Shown here piece after piece: positions 4,101 through 20,134 of a stretch of DNA of 25,164 bases. Source of the stretch: a virus; the IMG/VR virus record IMGVR_UViG_3300027801_000149, positions 1-25,164 of that record; one strand, written 5' to 3'. Position 1 is the first letter of the stretch. Each line of letters starts with the position of its first letter. The position numbers and the translations under genes were made by a program. The notes below the pieces were generated by a model, which was not told the origin of the DNA, did no database searches, and saw nothing but the letters and a program-made list of their open reading frames with translations.

Positions 4101-7100
4101 GAATCTAATGATTTTAGAGCAAATACTGCTGCACTTGAAGCAATACCAACTCCTTTACCAAGTGGTACGTTAACGGCTGATGTTCAGTATTATCTTCCCA
4201 GAGTAGATAAAATCACATTAACTAAAGATCGAAAATTTAAAATTTTAAAAGGTACACCTTCATTAAATCCTGTGACACCTCCTGATGATGAAGATTCAAT
4301 GACATTGTATTCATTAAATATTCCAGCATATACTTTTAATCTTTCTGATGTAATTACACGATATGTTGATAATAAACCATTTTCTATGCGTGATATTGGT
4401 AAATTAGAAAAACGAATCGAAAGATTAGAATATTGTACTTCATTATCTTTATTAGAAAAAGAAACTGCAGCAAGGAGTTTTTCTACCAGTCAGGGAATTG
4501 CATTTAAAAATGGAATATTAATAGATTCATTTAGCGGCCATTCTGTTGGAGATGTTTTAAATGATGATTATAATATTTCAGTAGAATATGCGTCTAAAGA
4601 AATGCGACCGGGATATTATTATGATAATCATAAATTTACGTATGATGTGTCATATAGTAATAACGTGACAAAAACTGGAGATTTAATTACTCTTCCTTAT
4701 ACTGATGTAGATTTTATACAACAACCCATGTCAAGTAATACAGTTGTAACAAATCCATTTAATATTGTTACCTTTGTAGGAAACTTAAAAACATATCCAT
4801 CATCAGATGTTTGGTTTTCTCAAAATGCTAGACCTGAGATTGTGACAAATCTAGAAGGACAACATGATAATTGGAAATTAAGTGGAGGAAGAAAAGGTTT
4901 TGGTTCGCAATTCAATGATTGGGAAACAAATTGGAAAGGTATAGAAAAAACTGAACCCCCTATTCTAGGAACAGAATCTAACGGAAAGACTTATGAAGAA
5001 AAAAGGATGACCGCAGAATTAGATGATGCTAAAACACGAATAGGTATACAACCTACACCACCAGATGCCATTCTTAAAACTGTAGGAAAGAAAATCGTTG
5101 ATACTACAGTTAGACCTTATATAAATGGACAAAGAATACAATTTCTTGCAAAAGGATTACGTCCTCTTACAAATGTATATACATTTTTTGGTTCAACTGA
5201 TGTTGGAGCAAGTACACGACCCGCGACATCACTACTTCTAGGAAGTATAGATGGTACATTTGAAGTGGGTGAAACACTTGTTGATACGGCAAATAATCAT
5301 AGTACAATTTTAATGACAACGGATGTAGTTTCTAATGTAGCTACAGTTTTGATTTCTAATGTATCTGGTAATGTTTCTTCTACTACAGCAAGTCCTTATG
5401 GTGCTGCAAATGGAATGACTATTGGTACAAGAGAAGTAATGGCTGATACTATTGGAGATGTAACTCATGTATTTGCTACAGGAAATACTATTACGGGTGG
5501 TACAAGTGCCGCGACTGCAACTATTACACTCTCTTCAAAATACTCTCTTGGTGCAGCTAATGGTATTATGAGAACAGATAAAAATGGTCAAATGGCCGGA
5601 GAAGTATTCATAGAAGATGGTGTATTTAGAACAGGAGATAATCTTCTTAGAATTACAGATAGTAGTTTAGACAATGTTGCTGCTACTGTCGCAGTAGCTG
5701 AAACAAAATGGTCAGCTAAAGGTGTATTAGATTCTCATTCAGCAGAATATGTTTCTACAAGAGAGGCAATTATTCGTAGAGAAGTAGCAAATGAAGAAAA
5801 ACTTTTCACCGATACTACTGTTCGAGAAACAGAAAAAACAAATTGGTTAAATCCTATAGCACAAACATTTTTTGTAGATCCACAGAATTTTCCAAAAGGA
5901 ATATTCATAAGAAGCGTTGATTTATTTTTCTCTGCAAAAGATGTATATTTACCTATAACTTTACAAGTAAGACCGGTTGTTAATGGATTTCCAAGTTCTT
6001 CTAAAATATTACCATTTAGTGAAGTAACATTAACTCCAGAATTTGTTAATGTTAATGCAATAGCAAATTCAGCATCTGCTTTGACTTATACAACATTTAC
6101 ATTTGAATCTCCAGTTTATTTGGCACCAAATGAGTATTCTCTTGTAGTAGGAACAAATAGTACAGATTATAAATTACATTTGGCGGAAGAAGGTTTTACT
6201 GCTATCGGAACAGATGATACTAAAATTTCTAAACCGAGTTTTATAGGTTCACTTTATAGACCACAAAATTCAAATTGGTGGGGAACTAATCTAGATGAAT
6301 ATTTAACATTTAGGATGAAGCGTGCAGATTTTACAATAGGTGCTGGTGGAAACACCAATTTCGCAAAAATGGTTGTACATTGCAACGGTGCTTATGGAAA
6401 TACATCAAACGTAGAAATGGATTATTTTAATGTTGGTACTTCAACATTAGATTTTAGTGATACAGAATCAACTTGGAAATATGTTGCTTCTAATAATTCT
6501 TTTACTATGAATGATGTTCTAGAAGCTACCGCAACTTGGACGGAATTTACTCCTAATAAAAATCATAAATTGATAGACAGAAAGAGACTTGTTGCTACCT
6601 CTAATGGTACATTTAGAGTAAGAACAGAAATGATATCAGCAAATTCTCATGTTTCTCCTACAGTAGACCTTGATAGATTAAATGTGACTTCTGTACATAA
6701 TATCGTTGATAATGGAGAGTTATCAAATAAAGATATAACAGTAATGACTAGAGGATCAGGATATGAAAATGTGGAACCACAATTTGTCACTGCTGTATTA
6801 ACTGATGGAGGAACAGAAAACGTTGCTTCATTAAATGTTCATGTTTCTGTATCAATGAATGTAAATTCAAATTCAACTACAGTAACTAGTGGAAATACTT
6901 CATATACTGTTGATGCTGGAAATCCTGGCCAATTTATTGTGGGTGAAGCAGTAATGGCGAATACTGCCGCAGATGTTAATGCGAATAATAGTGGTATTTA
7001 CGGAGTTATAGATTCTGTAACATATTTAGATGGGGATTCTGCTGCAAATACTGCTACTGTTACTATTAAAACAAGTGCGAATAATCAAGGAGTTTTTGGT

Positions 7101-7733
7101 AATGGTATATTAATTTGGGCCAATCCAAATGCACAGACAAATGCTGCGACAGGATTAGAGACATCATGTAGTAATACCAAGATGCAAGTATTGATATCAA
7201 ATGGTTATGTTTCAAATGTTGTAGTAGTTGATACAGGAACAGGATATACAAAAAATCCATCAATTAGCATTTCGGGATTAACTCCTGTTGTGGGATCTAT
7301 TAATGCCGCAGTACAATGTACAGGAGAGGAAAGAAATAGTGGAGGCCCAATGCTTTCTAAATATATTTCTCGTAGAGTAACCCTTAAAGATGGATTTGAT
7401 GCTTCTGACATGAAAGTAGTATTAAGTGCTTATAAGCCAAAAGGTACTGATATTCATGTTTATTTCAAGCCTCAATCAGCTTCAGATCCAGAAAAATTTG
7501 ATTTAAAAAATTATATATTGATGGAACAAGAGACAAGTCCAGGAACTTTCTCTAAGGGTAAAAATGATTTTCAAGAATTTGTTTATAAAACAGCAAATGA
7601 AAACTCAAATTATACCTCAAATAATGCACTATATGAAACGTTCAAAACCTTTTCAATAAAAGTTGCATTTGTAGCCAACACCACTTATGATATGCCAAGA
7701 GTAAAAGACTTAAGAGCAATAGCATTAGATTAA
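1101..7733 (+). CDS. Giant virion structural protein, DUF4815-like, probably baseplate/tail periphery
   Basis: This 2210-residue protein is the largest in the window. Its N-terminus (PYYDDYDETKGYYRILFKPG, then QARELTQLQTALQKQIERVG) matches the DUF4815-type structural proteins of marine T4-like phages, which lie next to baseplate genes. The middle is a long run of Thr/Ser/Asn-rich beta segments. A predicted helical stretch around residues 1095-1125 (IGKLEKRIERLEYCTSL) could be a short coiled coil. Several units of the FxxGExxxxxxSxA type occur (about nt 1360-1560, 5240-5350, 5460-5700, 6925-7075). The C-terminus (IHVYFKPQ ... FKTFSIKVAFVAN ... PRVKDLRAIALD) is a conserved ending seen in large marine phage structural proteins. 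The start has an AGGA sequence upstream (about 1089). It is most likely a baseplate-attached arm or outer wedge component taking the place of T4 gp9/gp10; that placement is inference from gene order. Confidence 0.75.
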   Translation: MPLSTNFNVTPYYDDYDETKGYYRILFKPGYGIQARELTQLQTALQKQIERVGAHSFKNGSKVLGGDITLDTDVHSLQLEMQYLGTNINAASFIGKTVIGETSNARGRIVASQAPTNLLQPILMFHYLGGDIFVDGEIVQDEVVAPAESEVYATTVSLDGPSAMSNAVANGSVVSIDNGVFFLDGNFVLCVANTLILDTANTTPSGRIGLEIAETVKTSDDDMSLLDPADGSFNYAAPGATRLDIALSLVKKEIDLADPIAAVADPNFIQLLKIVDGIKHQAVEYPIYTAIEKTLTKKAHQKSGDFTITPFDLKLEPNRGLSGETANAGLAGTSVYGNNTRFTTELNIGDKIYLGSNVTCAEVSTIANNSRLTVTSTLDAGTSGLKIYNESEIQAGVSSGKAQIDGYEYESVSTKFLDIDKGRDTDIDSDYGIGVEVGNYVVVDNMNKFFDVGTHEILHLHNVKSVNINVTSNTEYLATQTGTARVRSLKWDSSTGNTSASDSNHSNYRTYLYDIDTSNSVGGTVGAGNADKTIVQLDTASTSYVNNTYLGSTITVNTVNGIDSTSDLRSIDTYVSNSTGHWATVNSAISQATITNSTYDIAFTIADTQSITVAEYSITLPGAAATINSYADIASTGKVGGVDTGKCLLNDSNINSLVYSLPQSPVKATVITANTVDYMFKLVQTNLTSDAAGKFTITLSNPNYEFLPKSGTLTHKQAREGYIVVVKEADGGTVTTAQTFVNAVSSGTSIPSNDSAIARDLIDGEWLDLGAQDDAAASIRPVAVAVDKHTVEIHCNTSSAFTADIIYCASSSTTRKEPGPRTKSLVSGNGSHLGSYAAGLPVTDLNSGQFYFTAPNLTQTATDELVVSDAFNLVKVVDSGVESIPVTNTMMTLSAHDITHMYEFDTGQRDGFYDHANIKLKAGYPGPIGQMVCVVDYFEWDGAVGYHSVDSYPTAGVWNQKDVASTKPFDYTTIPEFTSPSSGETFKLRDCIDLRPRRENESNDFRANTAALEAIPTPLPSGTLTADVQYYLPRVDKITLTKDRKFKILKGTPSLNPVTPPDDEDSMTLYSLNIPAYTFNLSDVITRYVDNKPFSMRDIGKLEKRIERLEYCTSLSLLEKETAARSFSTSQGIAFKNGILIDSFSGHSVGDVLNDDYNISVEYASKEMRPGYYYDNHKFTYDVSYSNNVTKTGDLITLPYTDVDFIQQPMSSNTVVTNPFNIVTFVGNLKTYPSSDVWFSQNARPEIVTNLEGQHDNWKLSGGRKGFGSQFNDWETNWKGIEKTEPPILGTESNGKTYEEKRMTAELDDAKTRIGIQPTPPDAILKTVGKKIVDTTVRPYINGQRIQFLAKGLRPLTNVYTFFGSTDVGASTRPATSLLLGSIDGTFEVGETLVDTANNHSTILMTTDVVSNVATVLISNVSGNVSSTTASPYGAANGMTIGTREVMADTIGDVTHVFATGNTITGGTSAATATITLSSKYSLGAANGIMRTDKNGQMAGEVFIEDGVFRTGDNLLRITDSSLDNVAATVAVAETKWSAKGVLDSHSAEYVSTREAIIRREVANEEKLFTDTTVRETEKTNWLNPIAQTFFVDPQNFPKGIFIRSVDLFFSAKDVYLPITLQVRPVVNGFPSSSKILPFSEVTLTPEFVNVNAIANSASALTYTTFTFESPVYLAPNEYSLVVGTNSTDYKLHLAEEGFTAIGTDDTKISKPSFIGSLYRPQNSNWWGTNLDEYLTFRMKRADFTIGAGGNTNFAKMVVHCNGAYGNTSNVEMDYFNVGTSTLDFSDTESTWKYVASNNSFTMNDVLEATATWTEFTPNKNHKLIDRKRLVATSNGTFRVRTEMISANSHVSPTVDLDRLNVTSVHNIVDNGELSNKDITVMTRGSGYENVEPQFVTAVLTDGGTENVASLNVHVSVSMNVNSNSTTVTSGNTSYTVDAGNPGQFIVGEAVMANTAADVNANNSGIYGVIDSVTYLDGDSAANTATVTIKTSANNQGVFGNGILIWANPNAQTNAATGLETSCSNTKMQVLISNGYVSNVVVVDTGTGYTKNPSISISGLTPVVGSINAAVQCTGEERNSGGPMLSKYISRRVTLKDGFDASDMKVVLSAYKPKGTDIHVYFKPQSASDPEKFDLKNYILMEQETSPGTFSKGKNDFQEFVYKTANENSNYTSNNALYETFKTFSIKVAFVANTTYDMPRVKDLRAIALD

Positions 7734-7737
7734 AAAC

Positions 7738-7962
7738 ATGGGAAAACAAATACAAACAGACGATCCAAGATTTGTTAGAGATGTGGAATCCAAAGCCTTA
7801 TTGAGTACAGATCATAATGCTTTACAACAACATAGACAAGAACGCGTATATTTTGAGAACCAACGGAGAGACATAAATATAATGAAAGATCAAATAGAAC
7901 ATTTAACAAAAGTAACTGAAGAAATGTTAGAAATAAAAACTCTTCTTAGGAATTTCAAATGA
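7738..7962 (+). CDS. Small helical protein between baseplate and fibre genes
   Basis: A 74-residue charged protein beginning four bases after the giant structural gene and ending in an ATGA overlap with the next fibre gene, so the two are probably translationally coupled. No clear Shine-Dalgarno is visible, which suggests reading by coupling from the upstream gene. The second half (DINIMKDQIEHLTKVTEEML and a following hydrophobic-spaced stretch) has regularly spaced I/M/L residues typical of an amphipathic helix or short coiled coil. There is no signal peptide or membrane segment. I do not recognise a named family. Position suggests a minor virion component or a fibre assembly or oligomerisation factor. 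The reading frame is well supported by its tight packing; the function is unknown. Confidence 0.65.
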   Translation: MGKQIQTDDPRFVRDVESKALLSTDHNALQQHRQERVYFENQRRDINIMKDQIEHLTKVTEEMLEIKTLLRNFK

Positions 7963-8651
7963 CAGCAAATGTTGAACTAACGGATACGTTTGGAACTTTC
8001 CGATCTAAAAGTAATGAACTTGTAGCAATGACTCATGATGGAATGAATAATTTCATCAAGGTATTGGATACTACAGACTCAACGAGTAATATTACTGGTT
8101 CGATTGTTACTGCAGGAGGTATTGGAGTAGCTGGAAGTGGAACTATCGGTGGAAATTTTAATGTTCATGGAAATCTCCATGCAAACGGAGCTATTTCAGC
8201 AGATGGAAATTTACAACTTGGGGATGCCGCAACTGATACAGTAACTTTTAGTGCTGATATAAATTCACACATTATACCTGATATCGATGATACTTATGAT
8301 TTAGGTTCATCTGGACAAAAGTGGAAAGACCTTTATGTGGATGGTGTATCTTATCTTGATGCTATAAACCTTAATGGTACTGCAATTTCTGCAACGTCTG
8401 ACCAAATTAATTATAATGTTATTAGTGCATTAGGAACAGCAGAAGTAAGTAAGACTGTTACAAGTGATGCAGCTGGTAATGTTATTTTTGTGGATGGGGC
8501 ATGTAATATAGATATAGCAAGTCATGACGGTACAAATGGATTAAAACTGGGTGGAACACTAGTTACAAAAACAGCTGCTCAGATTAACTCTGCCGCAACA
8601 AATGAGGAAGCGACAGCAGTTGCCGTTTCAATGGCAATAGCATTAGGATAA
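7959..8651 (+). CDS. Tail fibre-like protein (N-terminal paralogue of the S74 fibre at 15053)
   Basis: A 230-residue protein. Residues 1-120 are clearly paralogous to the N-terminus of the fibre at 15053: both start MTANV-LTDTF and share NELxxMT, GMNNFIKVLDT, GGIGV, GNLxxGDAxTDxVTF and ADINSxIIP. This is likely the attachment part. A DLGSSGQKWKDLY unit (residues 114-126) is a common repeat of phage fibres near their distal domains. Residues from about 152 to the end form a small module that recurs as the separate protein at 8691. Unlike its paralogue it has no C-terminal S74 chaperone, so it is either a short fibre or a shortened descendant. Start ATG overlaps the previous stop (ATGA). The fibre call is firm; the partner is unknown. 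Confidence 0.7.
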   Translation: MTANVELTDTFGTFRSKSNELVAMTHDGMNNFIKVLDTTDSTSNITGSIVTAGGIGVAGSGTIGGNFNVHGNLHANGAISADGNLQLGDAATDTVTFSADINSHIIPDIDDTYDLGSSGQKWKDLYVDGVSYLDAINLNGTAISATSDQINYNVISALGTAEVSKTVTSDAAGNVIFVDGACNIDIASHDGTNGLKLGGTLVTKTAAQINSAATNEEATAVAVSMAIALG

Positions 8652-8667
8652 TTTCGTTTAAAAGAAA
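8523..8667 (+). repeat. First copy of a local tandem duplication (fibre 3' end plus remnant of next gene's 5' end)
   Basis: Bases 8523-8572 are identical to 8793-8842 and bases 8607-8652 are identical to 8877-8922, both at a 270-nt offset. Bases 8653-8667 then equal 8944-8958, the early codons of the gene at 8936, at a 291-nt offset. The change in offset is exactly 21 nt: the stretch 8923-8943, carrying the ribosome-binding region and ATG of the downstream gene, is missing from this copy. It reads as an ancestral duplication of a fibre 3' end plus next-gene start, followed by a 21-nt deletion here. Confidence 0.85.
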
Positions 8668-8675
8668 TATAAATA
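8668..8675 (+). promoter_or_regulatory. Putative T4-type late promoter box TATAAATA
   Basis: A perfect match to the T4 late promoter -10 element (recognised in T4 by gp55 with gp33 and the sliding clamp gp45). It sits in the 39-nt gap between the fibre at 7959 and the small gene at 8691, 15 nt before the ATG, giving a very short leader containing AGGA. It lies exactly at the end of the duplicated block. Only three such boxes were found on the + strand in the window. Confidence 0.6.
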
Positions 8676-8690
8676 TAGGAACAACAACTT

Positions 8691-8921
8691 ATGTCACAAG
8701 CAAGAAATATCGCTAATTTTGGTGTACATGCAACTACTCCTGCTGGTGCGGTGACATTCCTAGATGGTGCAACGGATGTAGATATTGCTCAACATGACGG
8801 TACAAATGGATTAAAACTGGGTGGAACACTAGTTACAAAAACTGCAACTGAACTTAATGCCACGGCATCAAATGAAGAAGCGACAGCAGTTGCCGTTTCA
8901 ATGGCAATAGCATTAGGATAA
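8691..8921 (+). CDS. Stand-alone copy of a fibre C-terminal module
   Basis: A 76-residue protein whose body repeats the last ~75 residues of the preceding fibre: QHDGTNGLKLGGTLVTKTA and the last 15 residues (from NEEATAVAVSM to the stop) are identical to it. The N-terminus MSQARNIANFG differs and resembles the opening of small tail proteins in other marine phages. Over parts of the gene the DNA is identical to the upstream copy (50 and 46 nt blocks), while flanking parts are diverged, so the pair looks like old paralogues with recent exchange or duplication. AGGA lies about 12 nt before the ATG and a late promoter box just upstream. It may be a cap or trimerisation module acting beside the fibre at 7959. 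Real expression is likely but unproven. Confidence 0.6.
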   Translation: MSQARNIANFGVHATTPAGAVTFLDGATDVDIAQHDGTNGLKLGGTLVTKTATELNATASNEEATAVAVSMAIALG

Positions 8922-8958
8922 TAAAGGATTAAAAAATGGCAAATTCGTTTAAAAGAAA
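8793..8958 (+). repeat. Second copy of the tandem duplication, with intact downstream gene start
   Basis: This copy keeps the 21 nt (8923-8943) lost from the first copy, so the downstream gene at 8936 has its AAAGGATT ribosome-binding region and ATG. Blocks 8793-8842, 8877-8922 and 8944-8958 match the first copy exactly; 8843-8876 is diverged from 8573-8606. Confidence 0.85.
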
Positions 8959-9268
8959 AACTTCAGCCGGGATTGGAACTGGTTTCATGCCTATAGACAG
9001 TTATACGGTTCCTGGATCGACAGAAGTTACTGTAATTGGAATGACTCTAGCAAATGTCACAGCCAGTCCCATTTTGGCTGATGCATCATTATTTGACGGA
9101 GCATCATATATCTCTATCGTAAAACAGGCCCCTATTCCAGCGGGTGGTGCATTAGTTGTTGTCGGAGGAGATCAAAAACTTGTAATGGAAGCAGGAGATA
9201 GTATGAGAGTTAAATCTGATACCGCATCTTCTATAGATGTAATAATGAGTATTTTGGAGATAACATAA
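8936..9268 (+). CDS. Small beta-rich virion/fibre-associated protein
   Basis: A 110-residue protein with no signal peptide or membrane segment. It is built of alternating short hydrophobic strands: SYTVPGSTEVTVIGMTLAN, then IPAGGALVVVGGDQKLVMEA, then GDSMRVKSDTASSIDVIMS. The last part (KLVxxxGDxxxVxSxxAxxxDVxxS) matches the ending of the 116-residue protein at 12669 (RLVLSGTDALCVATASAADV and VVSYI), so the two are paralogues of a compact beta-sandwich type. Similar small proteins lie among fibre genes in marine T4-like phages. The start has AAAGGA upstream; the gene at 9270 starts two bases after its stop. Its first codons are also present as a startless remnant at 8653-8667. Probably a minor structural or fibre-cap protein; exact role unknown. 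Confidence 0.65.
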   Translation: MANSFKRKTSAGIGTGFMPIDSYTVPGSTEVTVIGMTLANVTASPILADASLFDGASYISIVKQAPIPAGGALVVVGGDQKLVMEAGDSMRVKSDTASSIDVIMSILEIT

Positions 9269-9269
9269 T

Positions 9270-10199
9270 ATGTCAATGATAGGCAGACAGCCAGCACGAG
9301 CAGCAATGACTGCGGATGATATTGGAAATAATACTATAGATTCAAATAAAATAATTAATTCTTCTATAGTAGCAGCAGATATTGGTGCTCTTGATGCTTC
9401 AGTAATGACAGGTGTTATGCCAGTTGGTGTTACAGGAGGTTCTGGATTGGATGCTATATCAGGAGTTGGAGGTTCCACTTTTACAGCTGTAGCAGATGGA
9501 GCAATAGCGGCTGGAGATGAATGCATTGTAACCTCGGCAGGAAAACTAGCAAAGATTGCCTCATCTACGTCTGATGTGTATTTTGGCCCAAGTACAGCTG
9601 GATTGTTTAATGATTGGAGTACTGGCAATGGATTTAGGCAGTATGAAATCTACGACAAGTTGTGGAACCACGCACAATCTCTGAGTCCCAATCCTTTCGC
9701 TTCTCAAGATGCCATGAAACAAGCAGCATATAATTCTTTTACTAATGCAAGTTGGGGAATAAATTTCCACCAGGACGGAAGTGGTGGCTATGGAAATATG
9801 ACGCAAATTCATGTTAATACGAGTGGTGTGTATAGTGATTATTATTTGACTGTAAACAGTATCACTTGCATCTCAGCTACTGGTAGTGCGCCAAATACCA
9901 CCAATCTTTCCACCCTTTTCAGCTGGCTGACGTATAAGCAGTTGGTGTTTAGATTTCAATATTCAGCTACAGTAACAAATGTGACTGCAACAAATTTTTG
10001 TGGATGGGCCGATGGTGCATATGCAGATGGAGTTAGTGCTACAATTAATTTAAAAGGTACTATAGAAACAGGCCTAACTGGTTTGACGACAGGATCATCA
10101 TATTATATACAGAAAAACGGAACTTTAAGTACGACAACTGATGATCCTTCGGTTTTAGCTGGTGTTGCACTTGCAACTAACAAATTATTGGTAGGATAA
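9270..10199 (+). CDS. Modular tail fibre/adhesin with swappable central domain
   Basis: A 309-residue protein in three parts. Residues 1-65 carry fibre-type NTIDSNKIINSSIVAADIG repeats, typical of phage fibre N-termini. Residues 70-99 (VADGAIAAGDECIVTSAGKL) match the N-module of the propeller protein at 13029 (IADGAISDGAKCILREDGKV). Residues 236-309 (WADGAYADG, GLTTGSSYYIQKNGTL and the final strands) match the last 75 residues of the same protein. The central part, residues ~100-238, is unique, rich in Trp, Tyr, Phe and Asn, and its codons are visibly richer in C than the flanks, as expected for an exchanged receptor-binding domain. It is followed after 9 nt by a tail assembly chaperone-like gene, suggesting a fibre-chaperone pair. 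No enzyme motif was seen. Confidence 0.7.
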   Translation: MSMIGRQPARAAMTADDIGNNTIDSNKIINSSIVAADIGALDASVMTGVMPVGVTGGSGLDAISGVGGSTFTAVADGAIAAGDECIVTSAGKLAKIASSTSDVYFGPSTAGLFNDWSTGNGFRQYEIYDKLWNHAQSLSPNPFASQDAMKQAAYNSFTNASWGINFHQDGSGGYGNMTQIHVNTSGVYSDYYLTVNSITCISATGSAPNTTNLSTLFSWLTYKQLVFRFQYSATVTNVTATNFCGWADGAYADGVSATINLKGTIETGLTGLTTGSSYYIQKNGTLSTTTDDPSVLAGVALATNKLLVG

Positions 10200-10208
10200 A
10201 GGAGAATT

Positions 10209-10406
10209 ATGGCAGGATTTTATTCAGGTTCTGATACCGGAGGAGAGAAATCAGAGAGAAATAGATTTTTAGCTGAATCTGATCAATATGTGTTAGAAGA
10301 TCATCCTACTACGAAAAAAGCAGAATGGTTGATTTACAGAACAGAGTTAAGAGATATGGATTTTTCAGATTTAGAAAATTTAAATTGGCCCGAGAAGCCA
10401 GAATAG
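10209..10406 (+). CDS. Tail assembly chaperone-like protein (Phage_tail_APC type)
   Basis: A 65-residue soluble protein. ERNRFLAESDQYVLEDHPTT, then WLIYRTELRDMDF and a closing LNWPEKPE, fit the pattern RNxLLxxSDWxxxxD ... WxxYRxxLRD ... WPxxP of the small phage tail-assembly chaperones found next to tail fibre genes. Those proteins are thought to help fold or attach fibres. The start follows GGAGAA. It sits between the modular fibre at 9270 and the fibre at 10420, so its client is probably the preceding fibre. The family match is by motif; assignment to one client is inference. Confidence 0.7.
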   Translation: MAGFYSGSDTGGEKSERNRFLAESDQYVLEDHPTTKKAEWLIYRTELRDMDFSDLENLNWPEKPE

Positions 10407-10419
10407 ATAATAAGGAAAT

Positions 10420-11151
10420 ATGGCTTATATAGGACGAGAATTACGACAAGATCAAGCAGCAAGGACACAGTTTACTGCAGTAGGTGCTGAAACTGCAGTT
10501 AATGTTACTTATACTCCCGGACAATTGACTGTATTTTTGAATGGTATTAAATTACTAGACGGTACTGATTTTACAGGAACAAATGGAACGAGTATTGATT
10601 TAGCGTCTGCCTTGGCTACTGATGATGTCCTAGATTTTATAGCTTATGACACCTTTACTGTGGCCGATGTGGTACCAGCTTCTACGGGAGGAACATTTGC
10701 GGGTAATATAAGTGTGCCTACAGCAACATCAGCCGGTCATGCGGTCACAAAAGCACAGTTAGATGCTTCAGCACATACTCCTGAAGGAACCGCAGTTTTG
10801 TCAACAGGAGAATCTGGAGGTTCTAAATTTTTAAGAGAAGATGGTGATAATACCTGTAGCTGGCAAGCAGTTCCTGCTGGAACACCTTCTATTACAGATA
10901 ACGGTAATGCATTAGCCCTGACTGTTGATTCGAGTGAAGATTGCACTTTTACTGGCAACATTTTTCCTTCTGTTGATAATTCAAAGGATTTAGGTTCAGG
11001 TTCAAATAGATGGCAAAATATTTACACTACTGACTTACATCTTGCCAATGATAGAGGAAATTGGACAGTAATTGAGGAAGAAGATTACTTATCATTAAGA
11101 AACAACAAGACCAATAAAGTTTACAAGCTTGTCATGGAGGAAATAGAATAA
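10420..11151 (+). CDS. Tail fibre protein
   Basis: A 243-residue protein. The N-terminal half (YTPGQLTVFLNGIKLLDGTD, then NGTSIDLASALATDDVLDFI and AYDTFTVAD) is a widespread beta domain of marine phage fibres. A TSAGHAVTKAQLDA segment and a SGGSKFLREDGDNTCSWQ segment are also common fibre linkers. Residues 188-200 (NSKDLGSGSNRWQ, followed by NIYTTDLHL) are a DLGS-x-W fibre unit like those in the 7959 and 15053 proteins. The C-terminus (GNWTVIEEEDYLSLRNNKT and YKLVMEEIE) is the typical fibre ending in T4-like cyanophages and relatives. AAGGAAAT precedes the start. The stop overlaps the ATG of the collar-domain gene by one base (TAATG), so the two are coupled and may form one fibre complex. Confidence 0.75.
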   Translation: MAYIGRELRQDQAARTQFTAVGAETAVNVTYTPGQLTVFLNGIKLLDGTDFTGTNGTSIDLASALATDDVLDFIAYDTFTVADVVPASTGGTFAGNISVPTATSAGHAVTKAQLDASAHTPEGTAVLSTGESGGSKFLREDGDNTCSWQAVPAGTPSITDNGNALALTVDSSEDCTFTGNIFPSVDNSKDLGSGSNRWQNIYTTDLHLANDRGNWTVIEEEDYLSLRNNKTNKVYKLVMEEIE

Positions 11152-11723
11152 TGGCAGTAATTACTAGTAGTGCAAGTGCACGATCGCTTACAGACACGGC
11201 GGGAAATATGGTAGGACAAATAGGAGCTTTTGGTCAGGCTACTGCTCCCTCAGGTTGGTTAATTTGTGATGGTAGTGTAATAAACGGTGTCGCAGGTGGA
11301 TTATATGAAGCTCTTTGGAATAAAATTGGCACTACTTACGGAGGTTCTGGACAAACAAGTTTTAATCTTCCAGATTGTCGTGGAGAATTTTTGCGAGGTT
11401 TTGATGATGGAAGAGGAACCGCAGATACTGGAAGAGGAATAGCATCTGCACAAACTGACACAGTAAAACAAGTTTGGTATGGTGGTACTCGTTTTAATGC
11501 CGACTATCATACTGGTGGTTGGGGTAGTGGATCACACAACTGGCAAATTAAACATTCTGGATATCCTAATAATTATGGCGCGGCTGTAACAACAAATGCG
11601 TTTGTTGCTCCTTGGTATCAAATTGGAGTAGGGATTGGTTATAATGGTATGAGATTATCTGTAGGAGAACACACCGAAACAAGAGTACGTAATGTCGCAA
11701 TACGGTATTGTATTAAATATTAA
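11151..11723 (+). CDS. Tail collar-domain fibre protein
   Basis: A 190-residue protein with a clear phage tail collar domain at about residues 22-90: GQIGAFGQATAPSGWLICDG, LYEALWNKIGTTYGGSG, then SFNLPDCRGEFLRGFDDGRG. The collar family occurs in short-tail-fibre-like proteins and related adhesins, at the distal or trimerised part. The C-terminal region is variable, rich in Trp, Tyr, Gly and Asn (about 105-165), and ends in TRVRNVAIRYCIKY, the usual closing strand of these proteins. It starts inside the previous stop (TAATG) and is followed after 9 nt by a second chaperone-like gene. Likely a receptor-binding fibre component; the collar assignment is strong, the ligand unknown. Confidence 0.85.
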   Translation: MAVITSSASARSLTDTAGNMVGQIGAFGQATAPSGWLICDGSVINGVAGGLYEALWNKIGTTYGGSGQTSFNLPDCRGEFLRGFDDGRGTADTGRGIASAQTDTVKQVWYGGTRFNADYHTGGWGSGSHNWQIKHSGYPNNYGAAVTTNAFVAPWYQIGVGIGYNGMRLSVGEHTETRVRNVAIRYCIKY

Positions 11724-11732
11724 AGGAAAAAA

Positions 11733-12188
11733 ATGATAGTCTGGAATTCACAAACAGCAATACCAAGAGAACCACAACCAAATCCGGAAATACCCGGTGA
11801 ATTTTTATATCGTAACGATGATGTAACAGAAGAGCCGCCTGAATTTGATGTTGATACTCAATTATGTCAATGGAATGGGTCAGAATGGAATATTAGTGAT
11901 AAACCAAAAACCGAATGGGTGAATGGTGAAGAGGTTCCAATAGAAGAGGGAGAGGCTCCTCAAACATTAACAGCATTAGAACAGTTACGTGGTTTACGCC
12001 AAGGTATGTTACAAGCGATGGAACAATACGGAAAAGGATTAGAAGATAGACCATTTACACAACATGAATTAGATTACAGACAAGAACTCCGTGATTTACC
12101 TGAAAATTCCTCACCTCAATTAGATGAAAATGGTGTGCTAACTGATGTTACTTGGCCCACAGAACCACACTTGAGGATGTTAAATTAA
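11733..12188 (+). CDS. Tail fibre assembly chaperone-like protein
   Basis: A 151-residue acidic protein. Residues 1-60 are Pro/Glu-rich with a CQWNGSEWNIS motif. The C-terminal half has LEQLRGLRQGMLQAMEQYG, then HELDYRQELRDLPENSSPQ and a final LTDVTWPTEP, which is the YRQxLRDLP ... WPxxP signature of phage tail fibre assembly chaperones. It is a longer relative of the 65-residue protein at 10209. It lies directly behind the collar-domain gene, after AAAGGAAAAAAA, so it most likely serves that fibre. It closes a transcription block: a 74-nt gap with a late promoter box follows. Confidence 0.75.
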   Translation: MIVWNSQTAIPREPQPNPEIPGEFLYRNDDVTEEPPEFDVDTQLCQWNGSEWNISDKPKTEWVNGEEVPIEEGEAPQTLTALEQLRGLRQGMLQAMEQYGKGLEDRPFTQHELDYRQELRDLPENSSPQLDENGVLTDVTWPTEPHLRMLN

Positions 12189-12262
12189 ATATATCAAAAA
12201 AGATAAATAGTATAAATAATTAATATTATGTACAACATGAATTCTATAAAGGAACAGATCAA
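12189..12262 (+). promoter_or_regulatory. Intergenic region with perfect late promoter box (TATAAATA at 12211-12218)
   Basis: This 74-nt AT-rich gap carries TATAAATA, identical to the T4 late promoter element, 44 nt before the ATG at 12263. Overlapping it, TAAATAGTATA (12204-12214) is repeated exactly at 20164-20174 in the other sizeable gap of the window. AAAGGAAC before the ATG serves as ribosome-binding site. It probably opens a late transcription unit from 12263 onward. Confidence 0.65.
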
Positions 12263-12619
12263 ATGTCAAAGAAAATTACAGAATTAGGAAAATTGTCCAT
12301 TGCGGCAAATACAGATGTTTTACTAATTGTAGAAAATCCTAGTACATCTCCCACAAACAAATACATTGAAGTCGGCGACTTGATGGACAACTCTGGAGCT
12401 ATGGCTCTTCCGGGTCTTGATATTGACGGCGGAACAGACATCGGTGCACCAATTATTGATATAGATTTATTTGTTGTTGATGATGGAGCAGGCGGCACAA
12501 ATAGAAAAGCTACAGCTTCTCGGGTCAGAGATTTTGTTTATGAGGGTACAGAAAATAAAAAAATAAAACAAAAAGGTGCTTGTTTACAAAGTTCAACACA
12601 TCAAGGATTATTTTTATAA
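12263..12619 (+). CDS. Short fibre-repeat protein, possibly a truncated fibre
   Basis: A 118-residue protein made of two repeats of a fibre unit: LSIAANTDVLLIVEN with TNKYIEVGDLM, and GADxxDLFVVDD-like DLFVVDDGAGGTNRKATASR with VRDFV. The unit DIDGGTDIGA followed by VDDGAGGTNRK is common in long marine phage tail fibres, where many copies are strung together. Here the protein stops soon after, with a Lys-rich unrelated tail (ENKKIKQKGACLQ) read from an A-rich stretch (12547-12573). This suggests either a minimal N-terminal attachment protein or a fibre shortened by a slip or deletion in the A-run. The gene has its own late promoter region and a good ribosome-binding site, so it is probably expressed. 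Confidence 0.6.
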   Translation: MSKKITELGKLSIAANTDVLLIVENPSTSPTNKYIEVGDLMDNSGAMALPGLDIDGGTDIGAPIIDIDLFVVDDGAGGTNRKATASRVRDFVYEGTENKKIKQKGACLQSSTHQGLFL

Positions 12620-12668
12620 TTTAATTTGATTTTTGGTTAATAAAAAAAATTTTAAGGAGAAATAAAAA

Positions 12669-13019
12669 ATGGCTATACCAAGCGGAAGTGGAACAGAAGT
12701 TTTAAAAGTTGCGTTTACATCAGGAGTTACTAATGCAGAAAGCAAAATTTTGACTGGTGTTGCAAATCATATCTATACAATATTAAGTGTTACAATATGT
12801 GAAACATCTGGAAATGCAGAAACATTTGACATGTATGTTGATGATGATGCTGGAGGAACAGATTATGAAGTTCTTTCTGATAGCGCACTTGGCGCAAATG
12901 AAACCTTTGTATATAACGATAGACTTGTCTTATCTGGAACAGATGCACTTTGTGTCGCGACTGCAAGTGCGGCAGATGTTGACATTGTAGTTTCATACAT
13001 AGATCAGGATTGGACATAG
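12669..13019 (+). CDS. Small beta-rich virion/fibre-associated protein, paralogue of 8936
   Basis: A 116-residue protein with strand-rich sequence: EVLKVAFTSGVTNAESKILT, IYTILSVTICETSGNAETFD, then YNDRLVLSGTDALCVATAS and VDIVVSYIDQDW. The ending pattern (RLVLxGTDALxVxxxSAxxVDIVVSYI) is shared with the 110-residue protein at 8936, and both lie directly before a modular fibre with shared ends (9270 and 13029). The gene order small beta protein plus modular fibre is therefore repeated. Strong ribosome-binding site (AAGGAGAAAT). The preceding 49 nt are AT-rich with no clear signal. Likely a fibre-associated cap or connector; no enzyme motif. Confidence 0.65.
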   Translation: MAIPSGSGTEVLKVAFTSGVTNAESKILTGVANHIYTILSVTICETSGNAETFDMYVDDDAGGTDYEVLSDSALGANETFVYNDRLVLSGTDALCVATASAADVDIVVSYIDQDWT

Positions 13020-13028
13020 GAGATATAA

Positions 13029-14684
13029 ATGAGCGGATTACTTAATAAAATAGGTTCAAGGTCCGGCAAAATTTGGGCCGGACAGGCTAGAGAAGCATCT
13101 ACAGGAGGAGGAGGAGCCGCTCCGACTTGGGATACTATTGCAGATGGAGCAATATCTGATGGTGCTAAATGTATTCTTAGAGAAGATGGAAAAGTTAGTG
13201 GTTTACCGAGTGAAGATGCATCAGCCCTTTATGGAGAAGGATCAACGGGCGATGAAGTACATGACAACGGCAACAAGGCGATCACAGCTTATGATACTAC
13301 CACTAATAAGATAATTTGTATGTATAACACCACCACATCTGGTGGTAACTGGAATAAAGCAGCTTTGCGTCATGGCACGGTAGATGGGGCTACTAAAACA
13401 ATCACATGGAGCAACGAGGTCATACTTAGTGTCGGACAAAATCAAGGCCATGCCATGTGTGTTGATTCTCACTCTGGAATCATATCCTGTTTCTTTCGTG
13501 ATACCGGTAATAGCTTTTACTGTTCCGCTAGACTCGCAAAAGTCGTTGCTCTTCCGCATGCTTTTGATACAAGTTCAATTATTACTATAGAGTCTGCTGT
13601 TGGAGCTCCCTACGCCGCCGAATACGATGAGCAAAATCAGAGAGTAATATTAGTCTGGAATGGTTCCTCTTATAATACATACGCGCAAGCATTTTCCCAG
13701 TCATCCATGGGTTCAAGCTTGTACTGGACACCACAGGGTAGTAAAATAAACCTTAATATATCCTCTTTGGGTGCCTATGCTTCTGCTTGGAAGCCAGGTT
13801 CAGGAGGAGGTATGCTTTTCGCCGGCAAATGGGGTAATTACTCGATGATTACGCCAATATATCTACCAAATCAGTCAAGTAATGTAGTGCATGGGACTGA
13901 TAAGTTCCTTGATATTGGAAACAGCTCAGGAACCTCAACATCGTATGACGAACATATACACGCAGTATATGATCCAGATACCGGTAATTTCTTGGTAACT
14001 CGCAAGCGAGGAGCTGGCATGCCGAACATATATCCACATGCTGATGCAAGGGATACTGTGTCTACGGTTGTTGAAGTCGGAGGTTCTTCTTTTAATTCTT
14101 TTTCTGTCAAGGCTACGGTAAAAGTCGCTGATGCATTACCGGATCCCGGAAGTGGAACTGGTTACAACTTCGGTAATTATGGTGGTAATCTTGGATACCA
14201 TGAAGGAGAAAATAAATATATATGTGCCTGGTATAGTGAAGGGGACACTGATAACGGTTGGGTAAAAATTGGCCATATAGTATCTGGCCAGATCGTTTGG
14301 TCTACTGGAGCATACAAATTTTCTTCCACCGCGAACATGGCCATGTTTGGGCCCTCAGCTGTTTGGGATCCCGATGAAGGTGAATTAATTTTATTCTATA
14401 ATAATTATTCTACAAACCATATTGAGGCCACATTCATCGATCCCTCGGTGGCTCTGACCAATTTAACTGCATCAAATTTTATTGGTATTGCCGATGGAGC
14501 TTATGCAGATGGTACTACAGCAAAAATCCAAATGCGCGGGCATATTGACGATGCTCAATCAGGTTTAACAATAGGTACAGAATATTTTGTACGATCTGAT
14601 GGAACATTAGCAACGACAGCAGATGCAATTGGGTCAATCCCGGCCGGCAAAGCTCTCAGTTCGACTAAAATTTTAATTAAATAA
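13029..14684 (+). CDS. Modular adhesin with predicted seven-repeat beta-propeller centre
   Basis: A 551-residue protein. The N-terminus (SGLLNKIGSRSGKIW) is a fibre-type leader, followed by a Gly linker and the IADGAISDGAKCILREDGKV module (37-56) shared with 9270. Residues ~80-475 show about seven repeats of ~50-60 residues, each with a strand pair around a turn: AITAYDTTTNKIICMYN, HAMCVDSHSGIISCFFRD, YAAEYDEQNQRVILVWNG, YASAWKPGSGGGMLFAGKW, IHAVYDPDTGNFLVTRKRG, LGYHEGENKYICAWYSEG and SAVWDPDEGELILFYNN. This fits blades of a beta-propeller, a frequent glycan-binding fold. Residues 477-551 (GIADGAYADG ... GLTIGTEYF) match the C-terminus of 9270. Codon choice in the centre looks richer in C than its neighbours. 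Most likely a receptor-binding protein; glycan hydrolysis is not excluded, but no catalytic signature was recognised. Confidence 0.7.
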   Translation: MSGLLNKIGSRSGKIWAGQAREASTGGGGAAPTWDTIADGAISDGAKCILREDGKVSGLPSEDASALYGEGSTGDEVHDNGNKAITAYDTTTNKIICMYNTTTSGGNWNKAALRHGTVDGATKTITWSNEVILSVGQNQGHAMCVDSHSGIISCFFRDTGNSFYCSARLAKVVALPHAFDTSSIITIESAVGAPYAAEYDEQNQRVILVWNGSSYNTYAQAFSQSSMGSSLYWTPQGSKINLNISSLGAYASAWKPGSGGGMLFAGKWGNYSMITPIYLPNQSSNVVHGTDKFLDIGNSSGTSTSYDEHIHAVYDPDTGNFLVTRKRGAGMPNIYPHADARDTVSTVVEVGGSSFNSFSVKATVKVADALPDPGSGTGYNFGNYGGNLGYHEGENKYICAWYSEGDTDNGWVKIGHIVSGQIVWSTGAYKFSSTANMAMFGPSAVWDPDEGELILFYNNYSTNHIEATFIDPSVALTNLTASNFIGIADGAYADGTTAKIQMRGHIDDAQSGLTIGTEYFVRSDGTLATTADAIGSIPAGKALSSTKILIK

Positions 14685-14691
14685 GGATAAA

Positions 14692-14988
14692 ATGAAAACT
14701 ATTATAAGTAATGAAACTAATCACAGTCTTTACATATTCAACGATGATGTAGTGATGGATATTGATGGTGACAGATATGAGGTTGGAGATCCTGTAGAAC
14801 TAATTATTCCTGATTGTAATAGTACTAATACAACAGTTCATGAAAACGTTACACCTCCTACTGATTGGAAAGGTGGAAAATATATTTTTGATGGTACTGA
14901 TTGGACAGTTGATACTGACTATAATGATTCTGATAACGTAGAGAAAGTATATTCTGACTTTTATCCTGCCGAAAGAGGAAATGAGTAA
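14692..14988 (+). CDS. Small acidic accessory protein of the fibre block
   Basis: A 98-residue acidic protein, 7 nt after the propeller adhesin, with AAGGATAAA before the ATG. It has strand-like segments (IISNETNHSLYIFNDDVVMD) and a KYIFDGTDWTVDTDY motif that recalls the CQWNGSEWNIS motif in the chaperone-like protein at 11733. It lacks the YRxxLRD-WP signature. By position it could be an assembly factor for the adhesin at 13029. Its stop TAA overlaps the ATG of a 22-codon reading frame by one base. No family recognised; function unknown. Confidence 0.6.
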   Translation: MKTIISNETNHSLYIFNDDVVMDIDGDRYEVGDPVELIIPDCNSTNTTVHENVTPPTDWKGGKYIFDGTDWTVDTDYNDSDNVEKVYSDFYPAERGNE

Positions 14989-17123: not shown

Positions 17124-18398
17124 ATGGCACTAAGTAGGATGGTAATAACTGCTGCAGGAGCAGGAGGACAAGCCATAGAATATACATATTCCAGTGATAC
17201 TCTAACTGCCGATTTACTCACCCAAGCAATTTCTGCTGGATGGGATTCCACAAAACCAGGCACTTTTACAGCATATGTCGGAGACGGATCTAATTCTATC
17301 GGACTGTATTCAAATTCAGGAAATGCATCACACTATGGGTTGTCTTTTGGATCTGGATGGGCAGCTGATACCATAATCAATCTTATAGTAAAAAATAACT
17401 CCATTATTGTTGGAACCGCAGGAAATGGTGGTGCCGGTGGTTCTGGAGGAGCCGGTGGTTCTGGAGGTTCTGGTGGCAGCGGAGGCGGCGGAGGTTCTGG
17501 TGGAATCGGCCGGAATTGTTGGGGAAATGTCGCGCCATCGGGAGGAACAGGAGGAGGAGGAGGAAACTCCGGTAGTTCAGGTAGTTCAGGTAGTGGAAGT
17601 AGTATAGGCTCAATTGGTTCAGCTGGAACACATGCAATAAATATGAATTGGCTAGGAGGAGCAGTCAACATTACTGTCGATTCAGGAGGTAGTATTGTCG
17701 GTGGTGGAGGCGGCGGTGCTGGTGCTTCTGGTGGTACTGGAGGAGGCGGTGGAACTGGCGGAACTGGAGGAGGCGGTGGAACTGGCGGAACTGGAGGTAA
17801 TACTTGTGCTGCACCGATGGGAGGTTGGCCCCAAAGTAGTAGATGGGGTGGGTACTCCTGTTGGCCTGATCAATCAAGTCATAACGGTGGGACTGGAGGT
17901 TCTGGTGGAACTGGCGGAACTGGAGGTTCTGGTGGAACTGGAGGTGCCGGAGGAGCAGGAGGTATTGGCGGTAAAGGTGCGGGATGGACAAAAGATTGTT
18001 CTAGTAATCTTTCGTCATGTCTCAATACAGACGCAGATTCTGGGGGCGGAAGTTCTTCTGGTTCTGGTGGTGCGAGTGGTAATTCCGGAAGTGGAGGATC
18101 TGGTGGAGGAGCTGGTTCAGGGCCAGGCACATACTGTAACGGGCAAGCTCCTTGCAATTATAGCTGTTCCACATGGAGTCAAGGTAACACAGGAGCAACA
18201 GGAAGTTCTGGAGGAACTGGAAGTGGAGGTTCAACCGGTAGTGGTGGAGGAACAGCAGCTACCGGTGGTGCATATGGATCCACAGGGGCTGGTATAGCAA
18301 CTATTATAGGAGGTGCAGCAGGTAATGCTATAATTAATGGATCTCACAGTTCTGTCACACTTATAAATAATGGAACAGTATCAGGATCGGTAACTTAA
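17124..18398 (+). CDS. Glycine-rich, cysteine-looped tip adhesin (gp38-like architecture)
   Basis: A 424-residue protein. Residues 1-98 are a non-repetitive head (TKPGTFTAYVGDGSNSIGLY, INLIVKNNSIIVG). From residue 99 onward, long GGx/GGxGG tracts alternate with short non-glycine loops. All eight Cys (132, 228, 246, 292, 299, 338, 344, 348) lie in those loops, as do most of the aromatic residues of this region. A second strand unit (AVNITVDSGGSIVGG, 180-194) repeats the INLIVKNNSIIVG unit, and the end (SVTLINNGTVSGSVT) is a third. This layout, Gly-rich polyglycine-II-type sheets displaying variable loops, is the architecture of gp38-type adhesins of T-even-like phages (for example S16) that bind host receptors at the long fibre tip. 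No sequence family was confirmed. Codon use is biased to GGA/GGT/GGC. Likely the key host-range determinant. Confidence 0.7.
   Translation: MALSRMVITAAGAGGQAIEYTYSSDTLTADLLTQAISAGWDSTKPGTFTAYVGDGSNSIGLYSNSGNASHYGLSFGSGWAADTIINLIVKNNSIIVGTAGNGGAGGSGGAGGSGGSGGSGGGGGSGGIGRNCWGNVAPSGGTGGGGGNSGSSGSSGSGSSIGSIGSAGTHAINMNWLGGAVNITVDSGGSIVGGGGGGAGASGGTGGGGGTGGTGGGGGTGGTGGNTCAAPMGGWPQSSRWGGYSCWPDQSSHNGGTGGSGGTGGTGGSGGTGGAGGAGGIGGKGAGWTKDCSSNLSSCLNTDADSGGGSSSGSGGASGNSGSGGSGGGAGSGPGTYCNGQAPCNYSCSTWSQGNTGATGSSGGTGSGGSTGSGGGTAATGGAYGSTGAGIATIIGGAAGNAIINGSHSSVTLINNGTVSGSVT
17739..17792 (+). repeat. Perfect in-frame 27-nt tandem repeat, two copies
   Basis: Two identical 27-nt units (17739-17765 and 17766-17792) encode Gly/Thr-rich nonapeptides. 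A related, imperfect 27-nt unit is repeated at 17892-17918 and 17919-17945. Units are multiples of three, so slippage would change the length of the glycine sheets without breaking the frame. Confidence 0.85.
18362..18369 (+). promoter_or_regulatory. Candidate intragenic late promoter box TATAAATA
   Basis: A perfect T4-type late box inside the last codons of the glycine-rich adhesin gene, 41 nt before the ATG at 18411. This spacing resembles that at 12211 (44 nt before its ATG). It would allow extra transcription of 18411-20134, including the halogenase. It also encodes in-frame Leu-Ile-Asn-Asn, so chance is possible. Confidence 0.4.
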
Positions 18399-18700: not shown

Positions 18701-18889
18701 ATGGGATCAATTTTAAAGGCATTGAAGAAAAAAGGGAGAGAATTGATTGAAAGAGGAGAAGAAAGAATGAAAATATGCAACCCGTGTGAATTTTTCTCAA
18801 CAAAAACAGGACAATGTAAGCAATGTGGATGTTTCATGGTCATAAAATCTAAAATTAAAAATTCCACTTGCCCTATAGATAAATGGTAA
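18701..18889 (+). CDS. Six-cysteine metal-ribbon-like protein
   Basis: A 62-residue basic protein. Residues 1-22 form a charged helix (LKALKKKGRELIERGEERM). The rest is a CxxC (26, 29) ... CxxCxC (39, 42, 44) ... CP (57) ... W pattern: ICNPCEFFS, GQCKQCGCFMVIKSKI, NSTCPIDKW. This is the arrangement of small zinc- or iron-binding ribbons seen in many marine phages (DUF6171-like, from memory). It lies three bases before the halogenase start and two bases after the previous stop, so it is cotranscribed with the halogenase. It could bind metal and have a redox or regulatory role, but this is speculation; a virion accessory role is equally possible. Confidence 0.65.
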   Translation: MGSILKALKKKGRELIERGEERMKICNPCEFFSTKTGQCKQCGCFMVIKSKIKNSTCPIDKW

Positions 18890-18892
18890 TTG

Positions 18893-20134
18893 ATGAAAGT
18901 TGTGATAGTCGGAGGTGGTAATGCAGGGTGTATAACTGCATTAGAATGGGGATTTATTTCTCAAACTTGGGAAAGATCAAGTCCACTTGAAGTTGAATTA
19001 ATTTATGATCCAAATGATAAACCTATACCCGTAGGACAAGGTACCGCTAGTGATTTATCTCAACTTATCTATAAACTCGGTTTTGACTGGTATAATAATC
19101 CTATAGAGGCTACACCAAAAGCTGGAATTATATTTGAAGACTGGGGCAAGAAAAATCATAAATTTATAAATTACTTAGAAAATGCAGCCATGGCAATGCA
19201 TTTCGACCCTCCTAATTTTCAAAAATATATATTAAATTCTGGTTTATTTAACATAATTGAAGATCGTATTGATGATATATCAACAATCGATGCTGATTTT
19301 ATATTTGATTGTACAGGTGGTAGACTGAATAATGATACAGAAAATTACAATAAACTTATTTCTACAGTAAATTCTAGTATAATAAGTAGAGTAAAGGGGA
19401 GAGACTATACACAGCTATGGACTCGGGCAGTGACTACTCCTGATGGATGGACATTTATAATACCACAGACCGACAATACAACAATTTATGGTTATGTGTA
19501 CAATAATCACATAACAGATGAAACCACGGCAAGAGAAAATATTAATAAATTATTTAATATAGAACCTGATGATATGATGAATCGGGTAATAAATTTTGAT
19601 TCATTTGTTGCTAAAGAAGTTATATCGGAACATAGAATAATTAAAAATGGTAATAAATTAGCTGCTTTTGATCCTCTTGACGCTCCTGCTACATCTTTAC
19701 ATATAATGGTTGCAGAATGGTGTCAAAATTTTATTTCTCATAAGATGAATTCTCCAGCTGAATTAGCTGGGACCCAAGATATTGTGGAAAAAGGCATATT
19801 AGATTATGTACATGAAATTGAAACGTTTCAATTATGGCATTATCAGTTTGGATCTAAATATGATACTCCATTTTGGGATTATGCAAAAACATTAGCTGAC
19901 AATTATTTCAATGATAATGAATATGGTAAAGAATTTAAAAATAGAATTAAACTTATAAACAACTTTTCAGAGCTTGATCTTTGTTCTATATTTTCTAAAA
20001 CTCTGCGAGTGCCAGCAGTTCTTGATGATACTCTTTTAGAATATAAAGGAATTTCTTATACCGGTAGTGATTTATTTTATGGGCCATGGGATGCAAAATC
20101 TCTCCAAAATTGGTATACTAACGTTGTTAATTGA
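18893..20134 (+). CDS. Flavin-dependent (tryptophan-type) halogenase family enzyme
   Basis: From the ATG at 18893 it has 413 residues; the TTG at 18890 would add one residue and is less likely. It opens with an FAD-binding motif VVIVGGGNAGCITA (GxGxxG: G7, G9, G12). IPVGQGTASDL (45-55) replaces the usual VGExTxP segment. ATPKAGIIFEDW carries Lys76, in the position of the catalytic Lys of PrnA-type halogenases that forms the haloamine. The family hallmark WxWxIP appears as W186-T-F-I-I-P191, with Trp changed to Phe. DPLDAPATS (260-268) takes the place of the PLES region with its catalytic Glu. These FADH2-using enzymes halogenate aromatic substrates; a cyanophage relative (VirX1) is described as iodinating diverse substrates. 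It lies among tail genes, cotranscribed with the Cys-rich protein. The family call is good; substrate and halide are unknown. Confidence 0.75.
   Translation: MKVVIVGGGNAGCITALEWGFISQTWERSSPLEVELIYDPNDKPIPVGQGTASDLSQLIYKLGFDWYNNPIEATPKAGIIFEDWGKKNHKFINYLENAAMAMHFDPPNFQKYILNSGLFNIIEDRIDDISTIDADFIFDCTGGRLNNDTENYNKLISTVNSSIISRVKGRDYTQLWTRAVTTPDGWTFIIPQTDNTTIYGYVYNNHITDETTARENINKLFNIEPDDMMNRVINFDSFVAKEVISEHRIIKNGNKLAAFDPLDAPATSLHIMVAEWCQNFISHKMNSPAELAGTQDIVEKGILDYVHEIETFQLWHYQFGSKYDTPFWDYAKTLADNYFNDNEYGKEFKNRIKLINNFSELDLCSIFSKTLRVPAVLDDTLLEYKGISYTGSDLFYGPWDAKSLQNWYTNVVN

Follow-up and report, generated by a model that had tools for sequence, protein, structure and literature searches.

In T-even phages, conserved motifs lie in the terminal adhesin, and the exchange of distal tail fibre adhesins by recombination between conserved motifs was reportedly described by Tetart, Desplats and Krisch in 1998. 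The locus analysed here is alike in that conserved parts flank variable recognition parts, as do the motifs which act as exchange places in T4-like phages. It differs in that the slot would be a loop within a folded bead domain, which takes whole domains that differ in fold, or nothing.

In marine myophages, the host recognition cluster is found between the genes of the baseplate and those of the neck (PMC7029224). In the accessible portions of two reports, metaviromic islands and this cluster vary at the level of genes or regions (PMC3909814, PMC7029224). Our locus lies in the same genomic region, with recognition genes that vary between close relatives, whereas a split-domain slot is not described in those portions (PMC3909814, PMC7029224).

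Another comparison is provided by the Anabaena phage A-1(L), whose gp81 and gp82 build a bead-chain neck fibre (PMC10966104). The C-terminal domain of these proteins is an uninterrupted bead domain, to which both halves of our split domain match contiguously, and gp81 forms repeated beads in the fibre just as some marine proteins have three to four copies in a row. On the other hand, A-1(L) has no loop insertion, and a separate carbohydrate-binding module sits on gp80 at the tip (PMC10966104). The Photorhabdus lectins PLL/PHL have the seven-bladed fold of the predicted 13029 insert (Z about 29), but they are free lectins rather than phage fibre inserts, and the identity is 9–12%. Overall, the exchange of adhesin parts and variable recognition islands are already known, and the split bead-loop slot is the new part; a literature search with little subscription literature gave no description of a bead-domain loop as an insertion slot.

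Genomic setting of the two adhesin genes

We have analysed a 25-kb virus record from IMG/VR over its stretch of 25,164 nucleotides, called the window below. It opens with the last part of a baseplate wedge gene, followed by a protein of 2210 aa (phrog_358) and a row of fibre genes; after these come the head-tail adaptor, the head closure protein, the sheath stabiliser and the small terminase. The arrangement is similar to that of the host recognition cluster in pelagimyophages and cyanomyophages (PMC7029224). According to PHROGs and Pfam, a collar-domain fibre (11151), an S74 fibre (15053) and tail-assembly chaperones adjoin the two adhesins A (gene 9270) and B (gene 13029). The adhesins and the small genes around them are all on the plus strand, including a small tail-fibre assembly chaperone gene at 10209–10406 (PF16778, E = 1e-10; phrog_4912).

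Upstream of adhesin A, a small beta-rich virion protein is encoded at 8936–9268 (phrog_26609, E = 1e-11), which is homologous to the 12669 product and to the MANPNIV-type family. A small beta protein is likewise encoded upstream of adhesin B, at 12669–13019, and its orthologues mark the same site in the related contigs L002, L081 and L082. The original prediction regarded these two small proteins as paralogues, and the profile comparison agrees (hhalign 99%, which is slightly circular because one profile includes a member of the other family). Adhesin B is followed by a small ORF at 14692–14988 that had no match in family searches including Pfam and PHROGs, and which is a possible assembly partner.

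Anatomy of the adhesins

From its ORF, the N and C profiles and a structure model, adhesin A (9270–10199, 309 aa) consists of a fibre-type N-terminus and a putative split bead domain with an insert of 142 aa. The N-half of the domain is at 9480–9548 (profile E = 6e-12) and the C-half at 9975–10193 (profile E = 9e-30), and between them, at 9549–9974, profiles and model place a Trp/Tyr-rich inserted domain (pLDDT 43–75). Adhesin B (13029–14684, 551 aa), delimited by the same kinds of evidence, has a short N-terminus and the same split domain, with the N-half at 13137–13199 (profile E = 3e-11), the C-half at 14457–14678 (profile E = 3e-33), and an insert of 419 aa at 13200–14456, for which the model (pLDDT 77, pTM 0.74) and its fold matches predict a seven-bladed beta-propeller.

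The original prediction described two adhesins with common ends and different centres, and our comparison bears this out. The C-modules share 49% identity over 78 residues (E = 2e-20, z = 22 against shuffles) and the N-modules 30% (E = 2e-8, z = 7.3), while the centres of 142 and 419 aa give z = −1.1, i.e., they are unrelated. The 15-nt string GCAGATGGAGCAATA within the N-halves is exactly identical at 9492–9506 and 13140–13154, as it had stated. Identities of 49% and 30% are too low for dating an exchange between these two genes. Its further claim that the centres are richer in C holds in the window, where the C fraction of both is 0.035 above the ends and GC3 is 0.20 above, but not in the family: across 79 relatives, the C fraction of the centres lies slightly below that of the ends (−0.022). 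We have considered composition as a sign of foreign centres and rejected it, since the difference is reversed family-wide.

A probable single bead domain split by a slot

Although the N- and C-modules are common to both genes, as predicted, we have dropped the idea that they are two separate modules. Together they appear to make up a single small beta domain, of which each is a half, with the centres inserted in one loop, as suggested by profiles and structure models.

A search for the end modules was part of the original prediction. Our search of IMG/VR with a C-module profile has brought up at least 257 viral loci, and we have retained the best 79. Among the 97 distinct C-halves in these best 79 of at least 257 loci, 82 have a clear N-half upstream, while 15 lack it because they are truncated, either at a contig end or, in L038, where the ORF breaks. 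The N profile has 0 matches in shuffled ORFs, and elsewhere there is one lone N-half, which lies at a contig end. The half-domains therefore come in pairs, and the slot occurs both empty and filled: the halves are 3–5 aa apart in 3 of the 82 intact copies (L015, L028 and L038, the natural empty slots), 142 aa apart in gene 9270 and 145 aa in L002 (2/82), and 358–485 aa apart in 77/82. In L038, the C-half at 6797–6815 is spread over two overlapping frames (ORFs 4140–6815 and 6797–9151), either by frameshifting or through an error in the sequence.

Among the A-1(L) ORFs, a profile without the insert matches gp81 contiguously across both halves (E = 2e-8, profile positions 3–88 of about 102), which is better than the match of the C-half alone (E = 9e-7). 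The C-terminus of gp82 is matched at E = 5e-5 (positions 22–102), with the next best ORF at 0.18. In the structure model of A, confidence is high mainly for the host domain (pLDDT about 80–91), and there the N-half and C-half are aligned jointly, each time to a single domain of a phage head protein. The Z scores range from 3.9 to 7.7 for phi29, HFTV1, Patience, Adjutor, phiCD508, BB1 and lambda (phi29 6qvk 7.7, HFTV1 6.3, lambda 8xqb 3.9), and Foldseek gives an E of 0.5 at best. In Pfam, PF09956 (Phage_cement_2) and PF22758 (Phage_cement) stay below the curated cut-off in all six sequences tested, the best score being 19.7 bits vs a cut-off of 24 for the emptied B sequence. These cement families match 5 of 52 relatives at E < 0.01, with a best value of 3e-4. 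It seems from these models and profiles that the halves would pack into one fold.

In many relatives, the bead domain terminates a fibre-like protein of 1000–2500 aa, and single proteins of 1700–2500 aa have three to four bead domains in a row (L015 42–5576, L063 1524–8981, L080 1566–9020, L020 and L083). The bead may well be a building block of the fibre. In these five strings, each bead has its own insert or is empty.

As to the spread of the family, the own peptide patterns of 13029 bring up no relative in IMG/VR, only one marine single-cell virus came up as a relative in the search of isolated phages, and one peptide pattern found no C-half relative in bacterial and archaeal genomes.

Contents of the slot

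In the model of B, the propeller spans residues 63–475, and it fills the slot exactly, as the N-half ends at residue 57 and the C-half begins at 477. The predicted model has seven blades and shows Z values of 27–31 to seven-bladed propellers, with YncE at 30.8 and the PLL/PHL lectins at about 29. The lectins align over 313–321 residues at 9–12% sequence identity, so that the insert is no sequence member of PLL/PHL; the best profile match is the CV39L lectin with E = 0.049. Because the best structural matches include non-lectins (YncE, WD40 proteins), the propeller fold alone is no proof of sugar binding. B shows no gp38 family match, its only hits being phrog_3852 at E 0.038 and sub-threshold Pfam entries. 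A has no PHROGs or Pfam family and no gp38 family match.

Several insert families occupy the slot. A large SGT-repeat family links 72 of 78 centres at E < 1e-3, SBBP-like propellers are found in L018 gene 1 and in L022 genes 1 and 2, and L027 has a slot content seen in this single case. For the 142-aa insert of A no fold was recognised, since that part of the model (pLDDT 43–75) is too uncertain to search. The relatives of the 9270 centre, sought in three ways, are only L002 and the near-identical contig L001. Considering the fold and the genomic position, the inserts are probably the receptor-binding part, and probably sugar-binding.

Exchange of the inserts

The clearest exchange is observed in gene 2 of L018 and L022. 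In 30-nt bins, the DNA upstream of the N-half is 97–100% identical, the N-half itself about 87–90%, and the next bin 40%; identity is back at the start of the C-half (70–93%) and is 97–100% downstream. Breakpoints of the kind anticipated by the original prediction are therefore present, as identity drops sharply no more than 30 nt from the edges of the half-domains, and the BLAST cliffs fall at +1 nt from the N-half end and −1 nt from the C-half start. At protein level, the N-halves are 96% and the C-halves 92% identical, but the centres are an SGT-type propeller in L018 and an SBBP-type propeller in L022, which are unrelated (25%, z = 1.6). Actually, the L022 centre is 46% identical to that of L018 gene 1, the neighbouring gene-1 type, and only 25% to its positional counterpart. 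The raised divergence within the halves beside the cliff would fit crossovers at or outside the halves, as judged from these two sequences.

The same edges at the half-domains are seen between L053 and L021/L029/L051, with flanks of 76–91%. In both comparisons, the halves are retained at 89–96% while the centre changes. In addition, a single ORF of L040 contains three copies, whose C-halves are 85–89% identical in DNA and whose centres differ, and L052 and L066 share a centre that is 69% identical but a C-half of only 36%. Independent contigs speak against misassembly of the main cases: L018 and L019 agree at 99.8%, L021, L029 and L051 have one centre type in common, and L001 matches the 9270 side of the window at 99.9%. 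It is the near-identical flanks, in few pairs, that carry the argument for exchange. As close relatives hold unrelated domains, cut at the loop edges, the phages seem to exchange host-recognising parts as plug-ins. The cassette slot of the original prediction is sustained by such unrelated centres in near-identical flanks, with cliffs at the slot edges, but its ends would be one domain.

Larger replacements are found at the site after the 12669 gene, which holds B in the window, a 9270-type adhesin in L002, and another propeller in L081/L082 (24% to 13029), in flanks that are 76–95% identical. L002 and L081/L082, with flanks of 82–95%, have different folds there, and the difference reaches from about 20 nt inside the gene up to its last 20 nt or so, which takes in the halves as well. 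The chaperone gene accompanies the A-type adhesin in L002 (window 9461–10400 corresponds to L002 3402–4353 by synteny). Since whole genes differ at this site and only inserts elsewhere, the exchange seems to work at two scales.

We have also compared the distances among 76 long-insert copies. One half of the centre correlates with the other at r = 0.90, and C with C at 0.64, while the C-half correlates with the centre at only 0.28. An observation on the other side is that the N-half distances agree more closely with those of the centre (r = 0.50) than with those of the C-half (0.42). In IQ-TREE, neither alignment, ends or centres, is compatible with the tree of the other (delta lnL 516 and 1642, SH p = 0). 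Centres bound to their own ends with the same phylogeny are thus not what we see: the trees are discordant, and near-identical flanks hold unrelated centres. Fast divergence of the centres explains part of this discordance, and only the near-identical flanks exclude it.

Proposed explanation and alternatives

Based on the above analyses, we consider it likely that 9270 and 13029 are fibre adhesins with a bead-loop slot for an exchangeable, most likely glycan-binding insert. The phage would be a marine T4-like myovirus whose fibre proteins for host recognition are the products of these two genes, and each product would end with a small beta domain like those from which the beads of phage neck fibres are made. 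One loop of this domain would serve as the insertion slot for a complete second domain. The bead would attach the adhesin to the fibre, with the insert facing outward, where it most likely binds a glycan of the host surface. The insert would be swapped by recombination, either from phage to phage or from one paralogous gene to its neighbour, presumably by homologous crossovers through the conserved halves or the flanking DNA. Since the slot is bordered on either side by a bead half with conserved DNA and protein sequence, the insert could be replaced with the fibre still foldable.

Alternatively, the ends could be structurally conserved while the centres diverge fast in an arms race without any exchange, the breakpoints being mere boundaries of conservation. 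Of 47 C-anchored pairs, 27 do have alignments that stop at the domain edge, as have 11 of 23 N-anchored pairs, but these counts are weak alone, because selection alone also ends alignments at domain edges; the membership of most propellers in one diverse superfamily (72/78 centres, E < 1e-3) also suits this idea. We nevertheless regard it as very unlikely, for different propeller families lie in the 97–100% identical flanking DNA of L018/L022, different folds occupy one site between the 82–95% flanks of L002 and L081/L082, and the centre of L052 has stayed closer to its relative than the C-half. That whole adhesin genes are the unit of exchange, with the split domain merely a conserved anchor, agrees with the almost gene-wide difference at the 13029 site, where the halves are included and the chaperone gene moves along. 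As a general account it is quite unlikely, given the halves retained around changed centres in L018/L022 and in L053 vs L021/L029/L051, and the three copies in L040 with similar C-halves and different centres. Insert-only and whole-gene exchange both seem to occur.

The location on the virion is a different matter. The proteins could belong to capsid decoration or a neck fibre instead of tail adhesins, and show their inserts on the head or neck. The nearest solved relatives of the bead domain are indeed head decoration and neck-fibre proteins, and the neck fibres of A-1(L) are thought to take no part in primary recognition (PMC10966104). Yet the genes stand in a tail-fibre cluster beside the collar-domain and S74 fibres and a tail-fibre assembly chaperone, and the domain terminates the long fibre-like proteins of many relatives, which makes a head or neck position rather unlikely. 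The tail fibre is the location that we prefer for the adhesins and their slot.

A broader version of the bead-loop slot has, in our estimate, about even chances. The bead domain would then be a general socket across many marine phages, its loop taking different folds or nothing, with several sockets per fibre, and the host-recognition inserts would circulate, sometimes with a chaperone gene. If the slot works as proposed, protein architecture would explain how ocean phages alter their host recognition without breaking the fibre. The two half-domains are sequence handles for the automatic cataloguing of recognition domains in uncultured phages; the domains so found could be expressed alone and assigned to receptors, with the natural empty copies as a clean negative control.

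Other features of the window

A 130-nt stretch occurs twice at 90% identity, at 8523–8652 and 8793–8922. The C-terminal part of the ORF 7959–8651 is duplicated in the small ORF 8691–8921, and SMAIALG ends both. HQGLFL is a C-terminal tail common to otherwise unlike fibre-type ORFs (window 12263–12619, L038 6797–9151). No reverse transcriptase, as would accompany DGR-diversified receptor-binding proteins, was matched among the scanned ORFs of this 25-kb fragment. Within the fibre cluster, 17124–18398 encodes a glycine-rich protein of 424 aa with Cys-containing stretches, which is without family match. A tryptophan halogenase gene (18890–20134; PF04820, phrog_2928), preceded by a small DUF6171 gene (18701–18889), lies within the virion gene cluster.
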